Source of the DNA: a virus
Strand: one strand, 5' to 3'
Virus record (IMG/VR): IMGVR_UViG_3300046660_000525
Location: 1 to 43,542 of that record
Length of the DNA stretch: 43,542 nt
Positions 5,565 to 40,446 of the stretch are shown one piece after another; the stretch's first letter is position 1; the number at the start of each line of letters is the position of its first letter. Both the position numbers and the translations under genes were made by a program. Below the pieces are notes generated by a model. That model was not told the origin of the DNA. It saw only the letters and a list, made by a program, of their open reading frames with translations, and searched no databases.

Positions 5565-5787
5565 GCCTGTGATTGAGCAGGTCCCCAGTCGCACATGCGG
5601 CTGCTACGACTGCCTGATCGACTACCCATCGTCGACATACGGCTTCCGCCCTCCACGGACCGAATGCAACGGCCCGTGGAACGTGCGATACCGCAGCACA
5701 GACGGCAGACTGCGTTTGAAGCGGCTCCCCAACCGCAAGGACGCGCAGCTGTTCGCCACGACGGGAGCGAGGCGCAATGCCTCGTAG
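5554..5787 (+). CDS. Stand-alone paralogue of the integrase N-terminal domain
   Basis: 77 residues from a TTG at 5554 with GAGGTGAT upstream; it overlaps the previous stop and the integrase start. It matches the first 65 residues of the integrase next to it: both have CGC-x2-CL-x2-YP, YG-x-R-x-PR-x2-C, then G-x-W-x2-RYR. Such an N-terminal segment should contact arm-type sites in attP. The protein ends soon after, with no core-binding or catalytic domain. Possible roles are an excision factor, an integration modulator that competes for arm sites, or a duplicated remnant. The intact frame and good start signals argue against decay. Confidence 0.8.
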   Translation: MAPKPVIEQVPSRTCGCYDCLIDYPSSTYGFRPPRTECNGPWNVRYRSTDGRLRLKRLPNRKDAQLFATTGARRNAS

Positions 5788-7060
5788 GGCCGCGAACAAC
5801 CCCCGCCAGATCCGCAGCAAGGTGTGCGGCTGCGTCCTCTGCCTGGAGGAGTACCCGCCGGACGAGTACGGCGAGCGCCGGCCTCGCCGTGACTGCGTCG
5901 GATCGTGGCAGGCCCGGTACCGCGATCCGACCGGGAAGCAGAAGTCCAGGAACTTTCCGATCAAGGACGGCGGCAAGGCCGCCGCGGAAGCCTTCCTCGA
6001 CGAGACACGTACCGCCGTCCGCCAGCGCACCTACCGAGACCCCGAGCGAGGAAAGATCACGCTGGGCAAGTGGTGGGGCGAGTTCTGGGAGGTCGAGCAG
6101 AAGAAGGGCCGGCCCACCACGAGGAACCGGAAGTTGGGCCTATGGACGGCCCACATCGAGCCCAAGTGGAGCGGCTACCGGCTGATCGACCTGGAGTACA
6201 TGGTCCTTCAACAGTGGCTCACCCGCGACGTGAAGGGCTACGAGACCCAGAAGAAGACCAAGGAGCTGCTCGTCGCGCTCCTGGATGCGGCGATCAGGGA
6301 CGGCGAGCGGATCACGTCCAACCCTGCGGCCCACCTGGAGCCCACGGCCGCGAAGATCGTCAAGCATCCCGACGACCTCAAGCCACCGACGGAGGCCCAG
6401 TACACGCTCATCCACGCGGCGCTGCCCGCGTACTACCAAGTGATCTTCCGGGACTGGGCCAACGAGACGGGCATGCGGCCGGGGGAGTACGCCGGCCTCC
6501 GTGAGCACTGCATCGACGAGGAGGAGCGCATCGCCTACATCAAGGAGATTCTCATCCTCGACGGTGGCCGTCTGCGCCGTCAGGCGGCTCCCAAGACGGA
6601 CGCCGGATTTCGGGGCGTGCCCCTGACCGATCGTGCGTGGGGCGCGTACCTGTTCATGAAGCAGAAGTGGAAGCCGCTGCGGACGCGCTCCGCGATCGGT
6701 GACGGGTTCGACCTCCACCTTGAGGAGCTCGTGCTCCGCGGTCCGAGGGGTGCGGCGCTCAACGAGAACAACCTCCGTCGGCCGTGGCGGAGGGCGTGCG
6801 ATCAGGCCGGGGTGTCGCGGGAGTTCGTCGACCCGGAGACCGGGCGCTCGCAGTGGTGGCCGCGGATCTACGAGTACCGGCACGACGTGAGCAGCCGGTT
6901 GCACCACGCGGGCGTGAAGGAAGTGGACACTCAGGCGTTCCTCGGTCAGCGGCGCGGCGGCAAGGTGACGTGGCTGTACACCCACGAGAGCGAGGGCGCA
7001 CGCGAGAACGTGCGTGCCGCGCTGAATGGGGAGGGAAGTGGACTCCGCGCCGTGCAGTGA
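5777..7060 (+). CDS. int: Tyrosine integrase
   Basis: 427 residues; GCGAGG lies just upstream of the ATG. Domains: cysteine-rich N-terminal arm-binding segment (C17, C19, C22, C40, then GSWQARYRD), core-binding domain at about 92-190 and catalytic domain at about 200-415. Catalytic residues visible are R234 (TGMRPGEY), K273 (APKTDAGFRG), R368 and Y401 (WLYTHES). The usual first histidine of box II is tyrosine (Y365-x2-R368-H369) and the usual LGH is LGQ (Q391). Role: recombination between attP just downstream and a host tRNA gene. The frame is complete. Confidence 0.95.
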   Translation: MPRRAANNPRQIRSKVCGCVLCLEEYPPDEYGERRPRRDCVGSWQARYRDPTGKQKSRNFPIKDGGKAAAEAFLDETRTAVRQRTYRDPERGKITLGKWWGEFWEVEQKKGRPTTRNRKLGLWTAHIEPKWSGYRLIDLEYMVLQQWLTRDVKGYETQKKTKELLVALLDAAIRDGERITSNPAAHLEPTAAKIVKHPDDLKPPTEAQYTLIHAALPAYYQVIFRDWANETGMRPGEYAGLREHCIDEEERIAYIKEILILDGGRLRRQAAPKTDAGFRGVPLTDRAWGAYLFMKQKWKPLRTRSAIGDGFDLHLEELVLRGPRGAALNENNLRRPWRRACDQAGVSREFVDPETGRSQWWPRIYEYRHDVSSRLHHAGVKEVDTQAFLGQRRGGKVTWLYTHESEGARENVRAALNGEGSGLRAVQ

Positions 7061-7095: not shown

Positions 7096-7100
7096 GCCCC

Positions 7101-7140
7101 CTCGGCGAGTCTCGGCGAGTCTCGGCGAGTTCCGACGAGG
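7101..7140. repeat. 10-bp-period array in attP, cluster 1
   Basis: Three exact copies of CTCGGCGAGT at 7101, 7111 and 7121 are followed by a degenerate unit (TCCGACGAGG). The array lies between the P-arm sites and the core, the place where an excisionase binds in lambda-type attP regions. The unit is the same as in the array upstream of the early promoter. Confidence 0.75.
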
Positions 7141-7165
7141 GGTGCCGCGGGGGTCGCGCTCGAAA

Positions 7166-7195
7166 CTCGGCGAGTCTCGGCGAGTCTCGGAGACC
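7166..7195. repeat. 10-bp-period array in attP, cluster 2
   Basis: Two exact copies of CTCGGCGAGT at 7166 and 7176 and a partial third (CTCGGAGA at 7186). It ends about 20 bp before the tRNA-derived core. Clusters 1 and 2 start 65 bp apart. Confidence 0.7.
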
Positions 7196-36784: not shown

Positions 36785-36873
36785 CGGTTCCTCCAGGGCG
36801 TGCGTAGCCAGTGGGCGAGGGGGAGGCCGGCGGTGATGACGACCAGGGCGACGAAGGCGAAGACGGCGATCAC
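36781..36873 (-). CDS. 30-residue single-pass membrane protein
   Basis: GTG at 36873 overlaps the upstream stop (GTGA), and the stop overlaps the next start (ATGA). It reads VIAVFAFVALVVITAGLPLA and ends HWLRTPWRNR: one membrane helix plus a basic tail. Coupling at both ends is strong evidence for a real gene below normal size limits. Confidence 0.7.
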   Translation of the reverse strand: MIAVFAFVALVVITAGLPLAHWLRTPWRNR

Positions 36874-37295
36874 GACGGCACCTCGGCGGCGAGTTCGAGG
36901 AGTACGTCCGCGTGGCACGGCTCGCCGATCGGGCACCAGCACATGAGGTCCCGGCCGACCAGCTCGGTGCGCACCGCTTCGACCAAGGACGGCCGCTGAT
37001 CGAGGAGGCGGCGGTACATGGCGACGGCCTGCGCGCGGGTGGCGTCCAGCACCAGATGCGAGGTGATCGAGCCATCGGGGTGGACGTACCCGTGGTGCTG
37101 GCCCGACGTCTTGCCGAGGCGTCCCTCCTGCTCCCACTCGGAGCCATCGAGGGCGGGCATGCGGACCTGCGTGCAGGGGTTCCCCCAGCGGGAGCCGCGG
37201 CCGACGTACACGGCGCCGTGCGGTGCGCGCCAGCCCTTGACGCGGCGGCGCTGGATTCGGCGGGGCTGGTCGAGGGTGGCCTGTCGGGCGGTCAT
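36870..37295 (-). CDS. DUF4326 protein
   Basis: 141 residues from an ATG at 37295; a GTG at 37301 is equally possible. Typical motifs are RRIQRRRVKGWRAPHGAVYV, GRGSRWGNP and the end LMCWCPIGEPCHADVLLEL. DUF4326 proteins are common in phages; the CWCP-x4-CHAD part looks like a metal site. No activity is known to me. It is directly downstream of the helicase gene. Confidence 0.88.
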   Translation of the reverse strand: MTARQATLDQPRRIQRRRVKGWRAPHGAVYVGRGSRWGNPCTQVRMPALDGSEWEQEGRLGKTSGQHHGYVHPDGSITSHLVLDATRAQAVAMYRRLLDQRPSLVEAVRTELVGRDLMCWCPIGEPCHADVLLELAAEVPS

Positions 37296-37344
37296 GATCA
37301 CGTCTCTCTATGCGCGCGGGGCAGGCGGAACCGGATGAGCGCGG

Positions 37345-39168
37345 TCACGCGGTGTCGGCGTGGTGGTCGTTTTCGGGGTGTTGTGGTCGGTCGGGGTGGC
37401 TTCCGGTGGCGGGGTCGCAGCCGACGTGCGTGTCGTATCCGCGGTCGGATCGGAAGCCAGGGAGGGGCTTTTCGCAGACGGTGCAGGCGGGTTCGTCTGA
37501 TGCCTGTGGTGCGGGTGTTCCCTCCCCGTCCCTCCTATGGGAGGGAGGGACGGGGGGAACGGGGGGCGTTCCTTGCGTTCCCTCCGTGTTACCGGGGAAC
37601 GTTTGACCTGCGGCGTTACGCTCCTGTGATGCGTTCCGGGGAACGTTCCCGGGGAACGTGTCCGGGAACGGGTCGGGGGAACGCTGCGGGGGAACGTTGG
37701 CGTCATCCGCTTTGGCCTGGTTTTGGCGGAGTTTGACGATGCGGCTGACCTTCTCGGAGCCGGCCGGGATCTGAAGGTCGGCGAGCTTGGCCTTCACGAC
37801 GCGGTTCCCGGCGTCCAGGGGTACGCCTGCGCGGTTCAGCGCGGTGCTGATGTACTCGTCGGTCCCGGGGATGGCCGCCATCCCGTTGACCGGTTCGTTC
37901 TCCCACGTCATGAGGACGTGACGGGTGCCGCCGAGTGCCCAGTGGTCGCCGTCGCGGCGGGCCTGGCGCAGCAGGACGAAGTTGTCCGGCCCGATGCCCG
38001 TGCGGGTGTGCGTGCGCTTCAGGACGAGCGTGCCGCCGCCCTGTGCGGACAGCTCCCACACGTGGTCGACGTCCTGCGTCTTGGCAGAGGAGCCTCGGCC
38101 ACCGCGGTCCTTGTCCTTCCCGAAGTGGTCCAGGCGGACGGACGCGATGCGCTCCCGCTTCAGCGGCAGCAGGGTGTGGCGGTAGAGGTTCAGCCAGGTG
38201 TCGGCGTCGTTCTCGGGCCCGCTGATGAACCGGGACACGGTGTCGATGACGACGAGCTCGGCGCCGGTGGCTCGCACCAGGGCCACCAGGTCGGCTCCGC
38301 CGCCTGCGGTGTCGAGAGGCCGGATCGGCGGGAACGACGCGTACTTGAGCTGGCCCATGGCGCGGGCGTTGGCGCCGAAGGAGAGGAACCGTTCCTGTAC
38401 CTGCTCCTGGCCGTTCTCCGCGTCGAGGTACAGGATGCGGACGGGCTCCTGCGGGCTGTCGCCGAGGAACGACTGGCCGGTGGCCATGCGCCACATCCAC
38501 TCCTGCGTGAACAGGGACTTGCCGGCCTTGCCGTCGCCGACGAGGGTGATCTGCTGGCCGGGACCCATGAGCTTGCCGGGCAGGAGCTGGATCGCGCCGA
38601 AGTCGGTGAGGAAGAAGTCGTCCCAGTCGAGGAGGGACGCGACGAGGTGGGCGGGGCCGCGGCCGGTGTTCTCGCGGAGCTGCTCGCCCTGCTGGAACTT
38701 GGCGACGATCGCGCCGAGTTCATCGCCGTCGGCCTTGCGACTGATGGCGGCCTTGAGCTGCGTGGAGTGCTCGTCGTAGCGGCGCTGCCGGGCGGTCTCA
38801 GCGATCCGCTCGGCGAACGAGGCCGCCATCATCGGCGCGATGGGCTGCGCGCCGAGCCGGTAGATCAGGTTGCCGCCCTCAACACGGCGCAGGTCGCCGC
38901 GCTTTTCGATCTCGGCGCGGACGAGGGCAGGGTGGCACTGCTGGCCGGTGGCGTAGATCCCGGCGGCGGTGTCCCAGATGACTTGGTGCGCGGGGAGGAA
39001 GAGGTCTTCCCGGTTGATGAGGAGGGTGCACTCGTCGAAGGCCTGCTTGGAGTGCATGACGACGCCGATGACGAACTCTTCGGCCTCTGCGTCGTGTGGG
39101 GGCGGTGTCCGGTTGAGGCCGTCGTCGTCCGCCGTGTCACGCGGTTCCATGCGGCGGACGTTCTCCAC
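37345..39168 (-). CDS. Replicative helicase, DnaB N-domain plus RepA/AAA_25-type ATPase
   Basis: 607 residues from a GTG (GGAG eight bases upstream). Residues about 20-130 resemble the DnaB N-terminal domain (PPHDAEAEEFVIGVVMHSKQ). The RecA-type core has Walker A GDGKAGKS (211-218) and Walker B LVVID (305-309), with RLDHFGKDKDRGGRGSSAKT as the following loop, as in AAA_25/RepA-type helicases. The tail (490-545) is low-complexity, with FPGN and PPVP, and is encoded by an iteron-like DNA array. A zinc motif C562-x2-C565, H581, C584 comes at the end. It should unwind DNA at the phage origin. Confidence 0.88.
   Translation of the reverse strand: MENVRRMEPRDTADDDGLNRTPPPHDAEAEEFVIGVVMHSKQAFDECTLLINREDLFLPAHQVIWDTAAGIYATGQQCHPALVRAEIEKRGDLRRVEGGNLIYRLGAQPIAPMMAASFAERIAETARQRRYDEHSTQLKAAISRKADGDELGAIVAKFQQGEQLRENTGRGPAHLVASLLDWDDFFLTDFGAIQLLPGKLMGPGQQITLVGDGKAGKSLFTQEWMWRMATGQSFLGDSPQEPVRILYLDAENGQEQVQERFLSFGANARAMGQLKYASFPPIRPLDTAGGGADLVALVRATGAELVVIDTVSRFISGPENDADTWLNLYRHTLLPLKRERIASVRLDHFGKDKDRGGRGSSAKTQDVDHVWELSAQGGGTLVLKRTHTRTGIGPDNFVLLRQARRDGDHWALGGTRHVLMTWENEPVNGMAAIPGTDEYISTALNRAGVPLDAGNRVVKAKLADLQIPAGSEKVSRIVKLRQNQAKADDANVPPQRSPDPFPDTFPGNVPRNASQERNAAGQTFPGNTEGTQGTPPVPPVPPSHRRDGEGTPAPQASDEPACTVCEKPLPGFRSDRGYDTHVGCDPATGSHPDRPQHPENDHHADTA
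37555..37697. repeat. Iteron-like array, candidate replication origin
   Basis: GGGAACG occurs at 37555, 37595, 37639, 37652, 37664, 37677 and 37690; the last five are spaced 13, 12, 13 and 13 bp. Inverted copies (CGTTCCC) lie at 37576 and 37644, the latter making the palindrome GGGAACGTTCCC (37639-37650). The copies fall in all three codon phases of the helicase gene, so the repeat is kept at DNA level. An origin inside the replication gene is known from lambda O. Confidence 0.65.
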
Positions 39169-39253: not shown

Positions 39254-40072
39254 TCAGGCCGGGGAGCCGTTCAGGATCGGTGTGTCGATTCCGTCGGCGA
39301 TCGCCTTGAGGACGTCCGCGAAGGCGGCCTTGGCGCGCTCCTCGGGCTGCTCCAACTTGAAGCCGAGCGCCAGCTGCCCGCGGTCGATGCGGTACTTGAA
39401 GCGCGCGACCATCGAGTAGGCGTCGGCGCCTTCGAAGGGCGGGACGGCGATCTTGAAGGTCTCGGGGATCGCGATGTCGCCCTTGGGGCCGGCGGTCGCC
39501 TTGGTGTCCTCGACGTACGCGAACTTCCGCTCGCCGGACTGCAGTCGTGTGGACGACTGGAACTCGGCCTTCGTGGTGGCCTTGATGGACTGCGCGATCT
39601 CCAGCATCGTCGCGGCGTCCGGCTCGACGAGGTTCGGCAGGTGGTCCTCAAGGAAGTTCGCGAACCGCTCCTGGTCGACGAGCTTCCCGTCCAGGTCGGT
39701 CCACTCCTGCCAGGCCTTGGTGCGGCGCAGGGCCAGGATGAGGCGGTGCTCGGCGAAGCCGGGCTCGTCCTCGGCGTGGGCGTCGAGGACGGCCGTGATG
39801 GAGAGCCGCTCGACGTCGGAGTAGACCTCGCTCGCGTCTACGTCGCGGTGCTTGCCGTAGTAGGTGAGGAAGGACGCGGCATCGCGGACCGTGGTGATAC
39901 CGGTCTTGCGGGTCACGCGGCCGGTGTACTCGGGCCCGGTGAGGTCGAACGGCTGGACGCCGCCGTCGGCCGTGGCGACGAGGTAGATGCCGCCGGGCTC
40001 AACCTCCTTGGGGTCGAGGGCCTGCTGTGCGAGGGCGGCGACGGCCTGGATGCTGGTGTCGGTCTCGGTCAT
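39254..40072 (-). CDS. DUF2303 (YfdQ-like) protein
   Basis: 272 residues. Motifs: GGIYLVATADGGVQPFDLTG, TVRDAASFLTYYGKHRD, RTKAWQEWTDLDGKLVDQER, FANFLEDHLPNLVEPDAAT and the late ERKFAYVEDTKA and IAVPPFEGADAY. These are clear DUF2303 features. The family occurs in phage early regions next to replication or recombination genes. Its activity is not established. It lies directly upstream of the helicase gene. Confidence 0.88.
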   Translation of the reverse strand: MTETDTSIQAVAALAQQALDPKEVEPGGIYLVATADGGVQPFDLTGPEYTGRVTRKTGITTVRDAASFLTYYGKHRDVDASEVYSDVERLSITAVLDAHAEDEPGFAEHRLILALRRTKAWQEWTDLDGKLVDQERFANFLEDHLPNLVEPDAATMLEIAQSIKATTKAEFQSSTRLQSGERKFAYVEDTKATAGPKGDIAIPETFKIAVPPFEGADAYSMVARFKYRIDRGQLALGFKLEQPEERAKAAFADVLKAIADGIDTPILNGSPA

Positions 40073-40074
40073 GT

Positions 40075-40446
40075 TCAGAGTTCCTTGATCTCGTTCTTGC
40101 TGGTGGGCAGGTCCCGGACGTCGAAGGACGCCAGCTGTCGGGGGTCGTTGCGGGTGGGCCGGCCGTCGTCGTCGACGAAGTACATGGCGGGCGGGGCGAT
40201 GGGCCGGGGTGCCTTGAGGTCGGACTCGACGGTGACGAGGACGGGCGCGCCGTCGACGTGGCCCTTGGGCGGCTCGACGGTGACCTTGACGGTGAGGGAG
40301 CCCTTGCGGCCGTGCTCCTGGACGGCGTTGAGGAGCTCGCGGAGTTCGCCGCTGATCTGGTCGTGGGCCTCGCCGCGGCTGTGCTGGACGAGGAAGACGG
40401 CGAACTCGTCGTCCTTCTGGGCCGGTTCGGTCTGCTGCTGGGTCAT
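40075..40446 (-). CDS. Hypothetical early protein upstream of DUF2303
   Basis: 123 residues from an ATG. It is alpha/beta with ISGELRELLNAVQEHGRKGS, LTVKVTVEPPKGHVDGAPVL and VTVESDLKAPRPIAPPAMYF. The partnership with DUF2303 downstream, two bases apart, is common in actinophages. The role is unknown; it might form a complex with DUF2303. Confidence 0.78.
   Translation of the reverse strand: MTQQQTEPAQKDDEFAVFLVQHSRGEAHDQISGELRELLNAVQEHGRKGSLTVKVTVEPPKGHVDGAPVLVTVESDLKAPRPIAPPAMYFVDDDGRPTRNDPRQLASFDVRDLPTSKNEIKEL

Follow-up and report, generated by a model that had tools for sequence, protein, structure and literature searches.

The iteron-like array in the tail of a phage DnaB-type helicase gene is, judging from its sequence and that of its relatives, a real DNA element under selection at the DNA level. 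It probably represents a set of helicase-bound sites, most likely a replication origin, recognised by the helicase that the same gene encodes. In related actinobacterial phages such an array follows immediately on the part of the helicase gene for the putative DNA-binding end, and it varies together with this end of the protein, which argues for an origin that the phage's own helicase recognises. Among possible roles an origin comes first, since a replicative helicase is the proposed binder and since plasmid replication genes share the layout. The window, meaning the whole stretch of DNA that was analysed, is IMG/VR virus record IMGVR_UViG_3300046660_000525 with a length of 43,542 bases, and the gene that holds the array is on its minus strand (Table 1).

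The array and its helicase gene

A sequence-only reading had described seven copies of GGGAACG inside the helicase gene, five of them 12-13 bp apart, together with inverted copies and a palindrome, and the letters bear this out. Exact plus-strand copies lie at 37555, 37595, 37639, 37652, 37664, 37677 and 37690, the last five spaced 13, 12, 13 and 13 bp, and there are two exact inverted copies, at 37576 and 37644; the palindrome is also exact. Independently, Tandem Repeats Finder reported a 13-bp array of 5.1 copies at 37634-37698. Across the window GGGAACG occurs 14 times against 10.6 expected, which by itself is unremarkable, and 9 of these 14 copies fall within 142 bp. The element exceeds its earlier description, running from the hairpin at about 37517 to 37698 and including CAGGTCA. 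As DNA, the hairpin folds with -18.9 kcal/mol (z of -4.9). No strong AT-rich unwinding region was found near the array, only a dip in GC before the constant element, to about 0.64 over 150 bp compared with about 0.70 around it. Cumulative GC skew had been suggested as a check; in the window it does not turn at the array and lends the origin reading no support, and a skew of this kind decides nothing on where replication starts.

The encoded protein carries both the DnaB N-terminal domain and the RecA-like ATPase domain of a DnaB-type replicative helicase in the Pfam and PHROG results (Pfam DnaB 1.7e-14 and AAA_25 2e-21, both above the gathering scores). The PHROGs comparison places it in PHROG 19, DnaB-like replicative helicase, and its closest match in the phage collection is gp21 of Streptomyces phage mu1/6 (47% identical). 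AlphaFold2 predicts three helices at residues 437-489, with a core pLDDT of about 84-90. For the resulting HTH-like stretch (residues 435-487) the PDB gave no significant structural match, those of Foldseek and VIA-align being weak, and Pfam gave no convincing family. Immediately upstream of the helicase, at 39254-40446, are genes for a DUF2303 protein (PHROG 210) and for a protein of PHROG 204. Directly downstream, at 36870-37301, is a gene for a DUF4326 protein, and DNA resembling part of it occurs in many Mycobacterium and Gordonia phages.

Table 1. Features of the helicase gene and its array in the window, with the motifs of the six array classes
Feature	Position	Strand	Basis or remark
DnaB-N + AAA_25 helicase gene	37345..39168	-	607 aa, GTG start; Pfam, PHROG and mu1/6 match
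DnaB N-terminal domain, residues 23-123	38800..39102	-	Pfam PF00772; all-helical in AlphaFold2 model
RecA-like ATPase domain, residues 193-353	38110..38592	-	Pfam PF13481; seen in AlphaFold2 model
Three-helix HTH-like stretch, residues 435-487 (53 residues)	37708..37866	-	AlphaFold2; tracks motif class; proposed array reader
Disordered linker, residues 488-556, array-encoded	37501..37707	-	pLDDT <50 at 488-505 and 507-556
C-terminal CxxC...C zinc-finger-like domain, residues 560-590	37399..37491	-	Small domain in AlphaFold2 model; motif class not tracked
Iteron-like array, CGTTCCC half-sites (GGGAACG on + strand)	37555..37697	-	Exact copies, Tandem Repeats Finder, codon shuffles
Palindrome GGGAACGTTCCC	37639..37650	.	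Two half-sites, head to head
Constant element CAGGTCA	37604..37610	-	In nearly all arrays and all motif classes, variants included
Terminal hairpin CCCCGTCCCTCC...GGAGGGACGGGG	37517..37561	.	Inverted repeat; position kept in all classes
Class A (window) motif			CGTTCCC
Class B motif			CGTTTCC or CGTTCCG
Class C motif			CCTCCCC
Class D motif			GGTTCCC or CCTTCCC
Class F motif			CCTGTCC
Class G (mu1/6) motif			CCTGCCC

Conservation of the array in relatives

Viral contigs and species genomes supplied a set of helicase relatives, and an array is present at the same spot in 43 distinct helicases, that of the window included, which fall into six motif classes. Excluded from this set is L041, a class-A-like helicase that has lost its tail after the HTH, the frame running on into unrelated sequence without an array. 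The tails have a common order: half-sites come first, then CAGGTCA or a variant of it, then the class motif as a palindrome or near-palindrome, followed by half-sites in inverted orientation and a hairpin of C-rich/G-rich sequence. Motif counts agree with the class in all 43 helicases, each array holding 5-14 sites of its own class where sequence elsewhere in the locus would predict no more than 0.11, an agreement that amounts to consistency rather than discovery because the classes were first assigned by eye and the motifs picked after viewing the arrays, with counting coming later. The array keeps its place in these relatives, but no single motif is common to all, the motif changing from class to class along with the HTH-like stretch. 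A search of 101 genomes recovered only the genome that was already known.

The sequence-only reading had held that selection on the protein is insufficient to explain the repeat, whose copies fall in all three codon phases, and several lines of evidence agree with it, namely a codon-shuffle null, silent-site conservation, a change of frame in CAGGTCA and non-coding counterparts in distant relatives. In the tail, copies of CGTTCC stand at codon offsets 2, 0, 1, 1, 2, 1 and 2. Pairs of repeated 7-mers there number 111, whereas 300 synonymous shuffles that kept the protein and the gene's codon usage gave 25.5 on average and never more than 47; by the maximum-count measure, the codon shuffles are not significant for several members, for example L025 and L028. 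Counted at identical residues only, synonymous differences in class A amount to 0.099 for the array, compared with 0.256 for the helicase body and 0.346 for the HTH region, and the array lies below the body in 28/28 pairs of class A, 92/105 of class B and 75/105 of class D. The zinc-finger part is also low, at 0.13-0.16, so that the silent-site test alone fails to single out the array. The reading frame of CAGGTCA differs between classes, being 1 for A, B, C and G but 0 for D, and its retention in different frames indicates that the protein does not account for its conservation. A cluster of repeated sites conserved at the DNA level, as in iteron-type origins, is therefore present.

Distant relatives give the strongest indication of a DNA element that the helicase frame, in the clade of the window, runs through. 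In most of these the helicase stops earlier and a comparable non-coding array follows just past the stop codon. The strongest repeat window was near the helicase stop in 13 of 15 members of a first set of distant loci, and when twenty distant loci were scanned over their full length, the window richest in 7-mer repeats was at most 120 nt from that stop in 17. Motifs in these loci are CTGTCCC (L114, L116, L120), CTGTACC (L117), CTGTTCC (L122), CGTGTCC (L115) and CCTCCCC (L108), and several of the arrays have GCAGGTCAGACC and a terminal hairpin in non-coding DNA. Other arrangements also occur, with the array inside the coding tail (L035), upstream of the helicase gene (L123, L124) or beside another C-terminal domain (L112, L113, L115, L118, L036); the latter two arrangements weigh against an origin bound by the helicase's own HTH-like stretch.

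These comparisons bear on two other explanations of the repeats. That they form a low-complexity protein repeat, or the outcome of replication slippage with no function in DNA, would suit the disorder of the encoded linker and the tandem units that slippage yields. We rejected this explanation, which is extremely improbable, on the codon shuffles, the silent sites and the non-coding arrays; the use of all three frames and both orientations, and the constant element kept in different frames, argue against it too. The hairpins and repeats might instead act in the helicase mRNA as a terminator, an attenuator or a stability element, consistent with a strong hairpin at the array's 3' end in all classes. 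Such an RNA role for the whole array is very unlikely given half-sites in both orientations, a motif that co-varies with a stretch of the helicase protein and the upstream arrays just mentioned; the terminal hairpin could have an additional RNA role.

Motif class and the HTH-like stretch

The HTH-like stretch and the array co-vary and, as the comparison of helicases indicates, are exchanged together between phages. Motif class changes 16 times on the tree of the helicase body, 23 times on that of the zinc finger and 5 times on that of the HTH, a tree of few columns with many weak forks on which 5 is the minimum for six classes. Windows of 30 residues along the protein reflect class strongly from about 421-436 to 555 and nowhere else. 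A residual identity test with permutations gave 0/5000 for the HTH and 1358/5000 for the zinc finger. There are 47 pairs of different class that share a body identity of at least 0.80 with an HTH-core identity of at most 0.58; one example is L055 and L047 (classes B and D), which are 91% identical in the body and 87% in the zinc finger compared with 42% in the HTH. The 40 most class-informative columns are divided between residues 435-487 (19), the array itself (19) and the remainder of the protein (2). Outside the array the most informative columns include 456, 458, 459, 471, 475 and 476, and in the predicted model these columns fall where the second and the third helix begin, the places at which an HTH would be expected to touch DNA.

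Further relatives came from a scan of a larger alignment. Their motif matches the class of the nearest HTH in 10 of the 11 that have a tail, a set in which most are close to known members of class D or C and L107 repeats the HTH of L029, leaving L100, L104 and L109 as informative. L109 (41% identical) is the eleventh: its HTH is nearest overall to a class C member (30/53), yet it has R456 and S471 as in class A, and its array holds CGTTCCC 11 times. This agrees with a reading by residues, although that reading was made after the fact.

One residue appears to track a single base of the half-site. When CAGGTCA is used to set the register, residue 455 corresponds to the fourth base as N with T in 47/47, S with C in 3/3, R with G in 7 usable rows (L013, L056, L110, L114 and L120, plus L117 and L122, from two tabulations combined by hand) and L with A in 1, counts that overstate the evidence because many rows are close relatives and that come from a table in which the element paired with L033 and L034 was an unsuitable one. 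A residue-to-base code is possible.

Linkage confounds the co-variation, since the HTH codons and the array are adjacent and could be exchanged jointly without touching each other. The zinc finger, however, is about as close on the other side and gives no signal, so that simple neighbourhood fails to explain a signal on one side. Among neighbour genes within 6 kb, none tracks motif class comparably, the top rows of the scan being frames that overlap the cassette, and a neighbouring gene as the binder of the array was rejected for this reason. Co-variation with the HTH-like stretch favours the helicase itself as the binder.

A cluster of operators for a phage regulator, either a repressor or an early protein, would involve neither an origin nor binding by the helicase. 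Palindromic half-sites are typical of regulator sites, and plasmids with similar arrays have GntR-type regulators near their rep genes. Nevertheless, an operator cluster is unlikely: the arrays lie inside or after the helicase gene and not at a promoter, the class motif is near background elsewhere in the loci, and among neighbour genes within 6 kb the scan points to no regulator. Exchange of the cassette, whose edges are sharp at around residues 420-435 and 555, would also suit another DNA function bound by the helicase or by a linked protein, such as a partition site, a packaging site or a recombination hot spot that joins the parts of the cassette, and repetition favours recombination. The repeated association of arrays with a replicative helicase across phages, and separately with plasmid rep genes, makes such a function decidedly improbable.

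The proposed origin and known systems

For the preferred reading, an origin recognised by its own helicase, we infer binding by the HTH-like stretch, origin firing and helicase loading. According to this model, helicase molecules would dock via residues 435-487 on half-sites of the form C-N-T-N-N-C-C, single or palindromic, come together on the repeats and afterwards load onto DNA strands opened beside them. HTH and array would constitute one specificity cassette, swapped between phages as a unit. In the Streptomyces clade of the window the frame runs on through the array and yields the disordered linker and a zinc-finger tail. One may extend this to an actinophage DnaB-type helicase that is its own origin-recognition protein, with recognition domain and origin as neighbours in a swappable cassette, co-evolving by a simple residue-to-base code, and with a gene that in one clade has extended across the origin and made it coding sequence as well; we lean slightly towards this extended model.

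If true, candidate origins could be located beside the helicase gene in many actinophage genomes, and origin specificity could be read in part from a few residues. An origin crossed by a reading frame here, yet non-coding in relatives, would be an unusual and traceable case of dual coding. The natural motif classes in similar helicases offer a ready test system for how a helicase chooses an origin without a separate initiator, and could serve to test competition of matching classes within one cell. In open-licence papers we found no mapped actinophage origin with such an array, and we came across no binding or replication experiment on any member.

The proposed system has known parallels in lambda O and its origin, SaPI Rep and pSLA2 rep1. 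Lambda O is not a helicase, and host DnaB is recruited through P. The lambda origin lies inside gene O (PMC6022878), and the iterons of Stx phages are bound by the O protein (PMC7466680). The parallel with lambda that had been drawn from the sequence holds for the layout, the repeats of O being inside its own initiator gene and those of the window inside a gene with a putative initiator role. It does not extend to homology, as the gene encodes a DnaB-type helicase for which the Pfam and PHROGs results contain no O-type domain. The window also differs in having the array in the helicase gene itself, with the proposed reading domain near the C terminus.

In linear plasmids of Streptomyces the layout is similar. 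Chang, Kim and Cohen reportedly described in 1996, for pSLA2 and pSCL1, iterons within the replication gene rep1, beside the DnaB-type helicase gene rep2; the pSLA2 origin consists of these iterons inside rep1. In Streptomyces plasmids L058 and L060-L064 the gene directly upstream of the DnaB-type helicase holds palindromic repeats, CAGGTCAGAGCC-type elements and a C-rich hairpin, the last two in common with the phage arrays. These repeats, at 2364-2560 in L058, vary between the plasmids, and repetition exceeds all shuffles in all six. The HTH gene of pSCL1 shows repetition within the shuffle range (70, maximum 79), yet tandem 16-mers are visible in it. Like the window, both the pSLA2/pSCL1 type and these six plasmids have repeats in a replication gene that adjoins or is a DnaB-type helicase gene. 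In the plasmids, however, the array is in a separate gene, whereas that of the window follows an HTH-like stretch fused to the helicase; the window has its array in the helicase gene and not in a separate rep1 gene upstream, the two-gene layout being that of L058 and L060-L064. A relative of the plasmid rep1-like protein was sought in viral contigs and none was found.

SaPI Rep and phage P4 alpha have a C-terminal iteron-binding domain and class-specific iterons, and their ATPase families differ from that of the window's helicase. We know of no array inside the gene in these systems. SaPI Rep is an initiator with helicase activity encoded by the element (PMC7145576), and the likeness to the window is that of an element's own helicase-active initiator, a role that is putative for the window's protein. 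In mycobacteriophages Miko and Jeeves the origin is thought to be in or beside the gene of the initiator RepA, a plasmid-type protein of 320-350 residues for which no repeated motifs were identified (PMC7157519). These phages resemble the window as actinophage replicons with an origin thought to be at the initiator gene, and differ from it in their plasmid-type RepA without repeated motifs.

A second set of repeats lies elsewhere in the window: in the gap that immediately follows an integrase-family gene (5777-7060), tandem near-palindromic 10-mers (CTCGGCGAGT) stand at 7100-7185, three copies plus two. These are possibly integrase arm sites or a regulator array.
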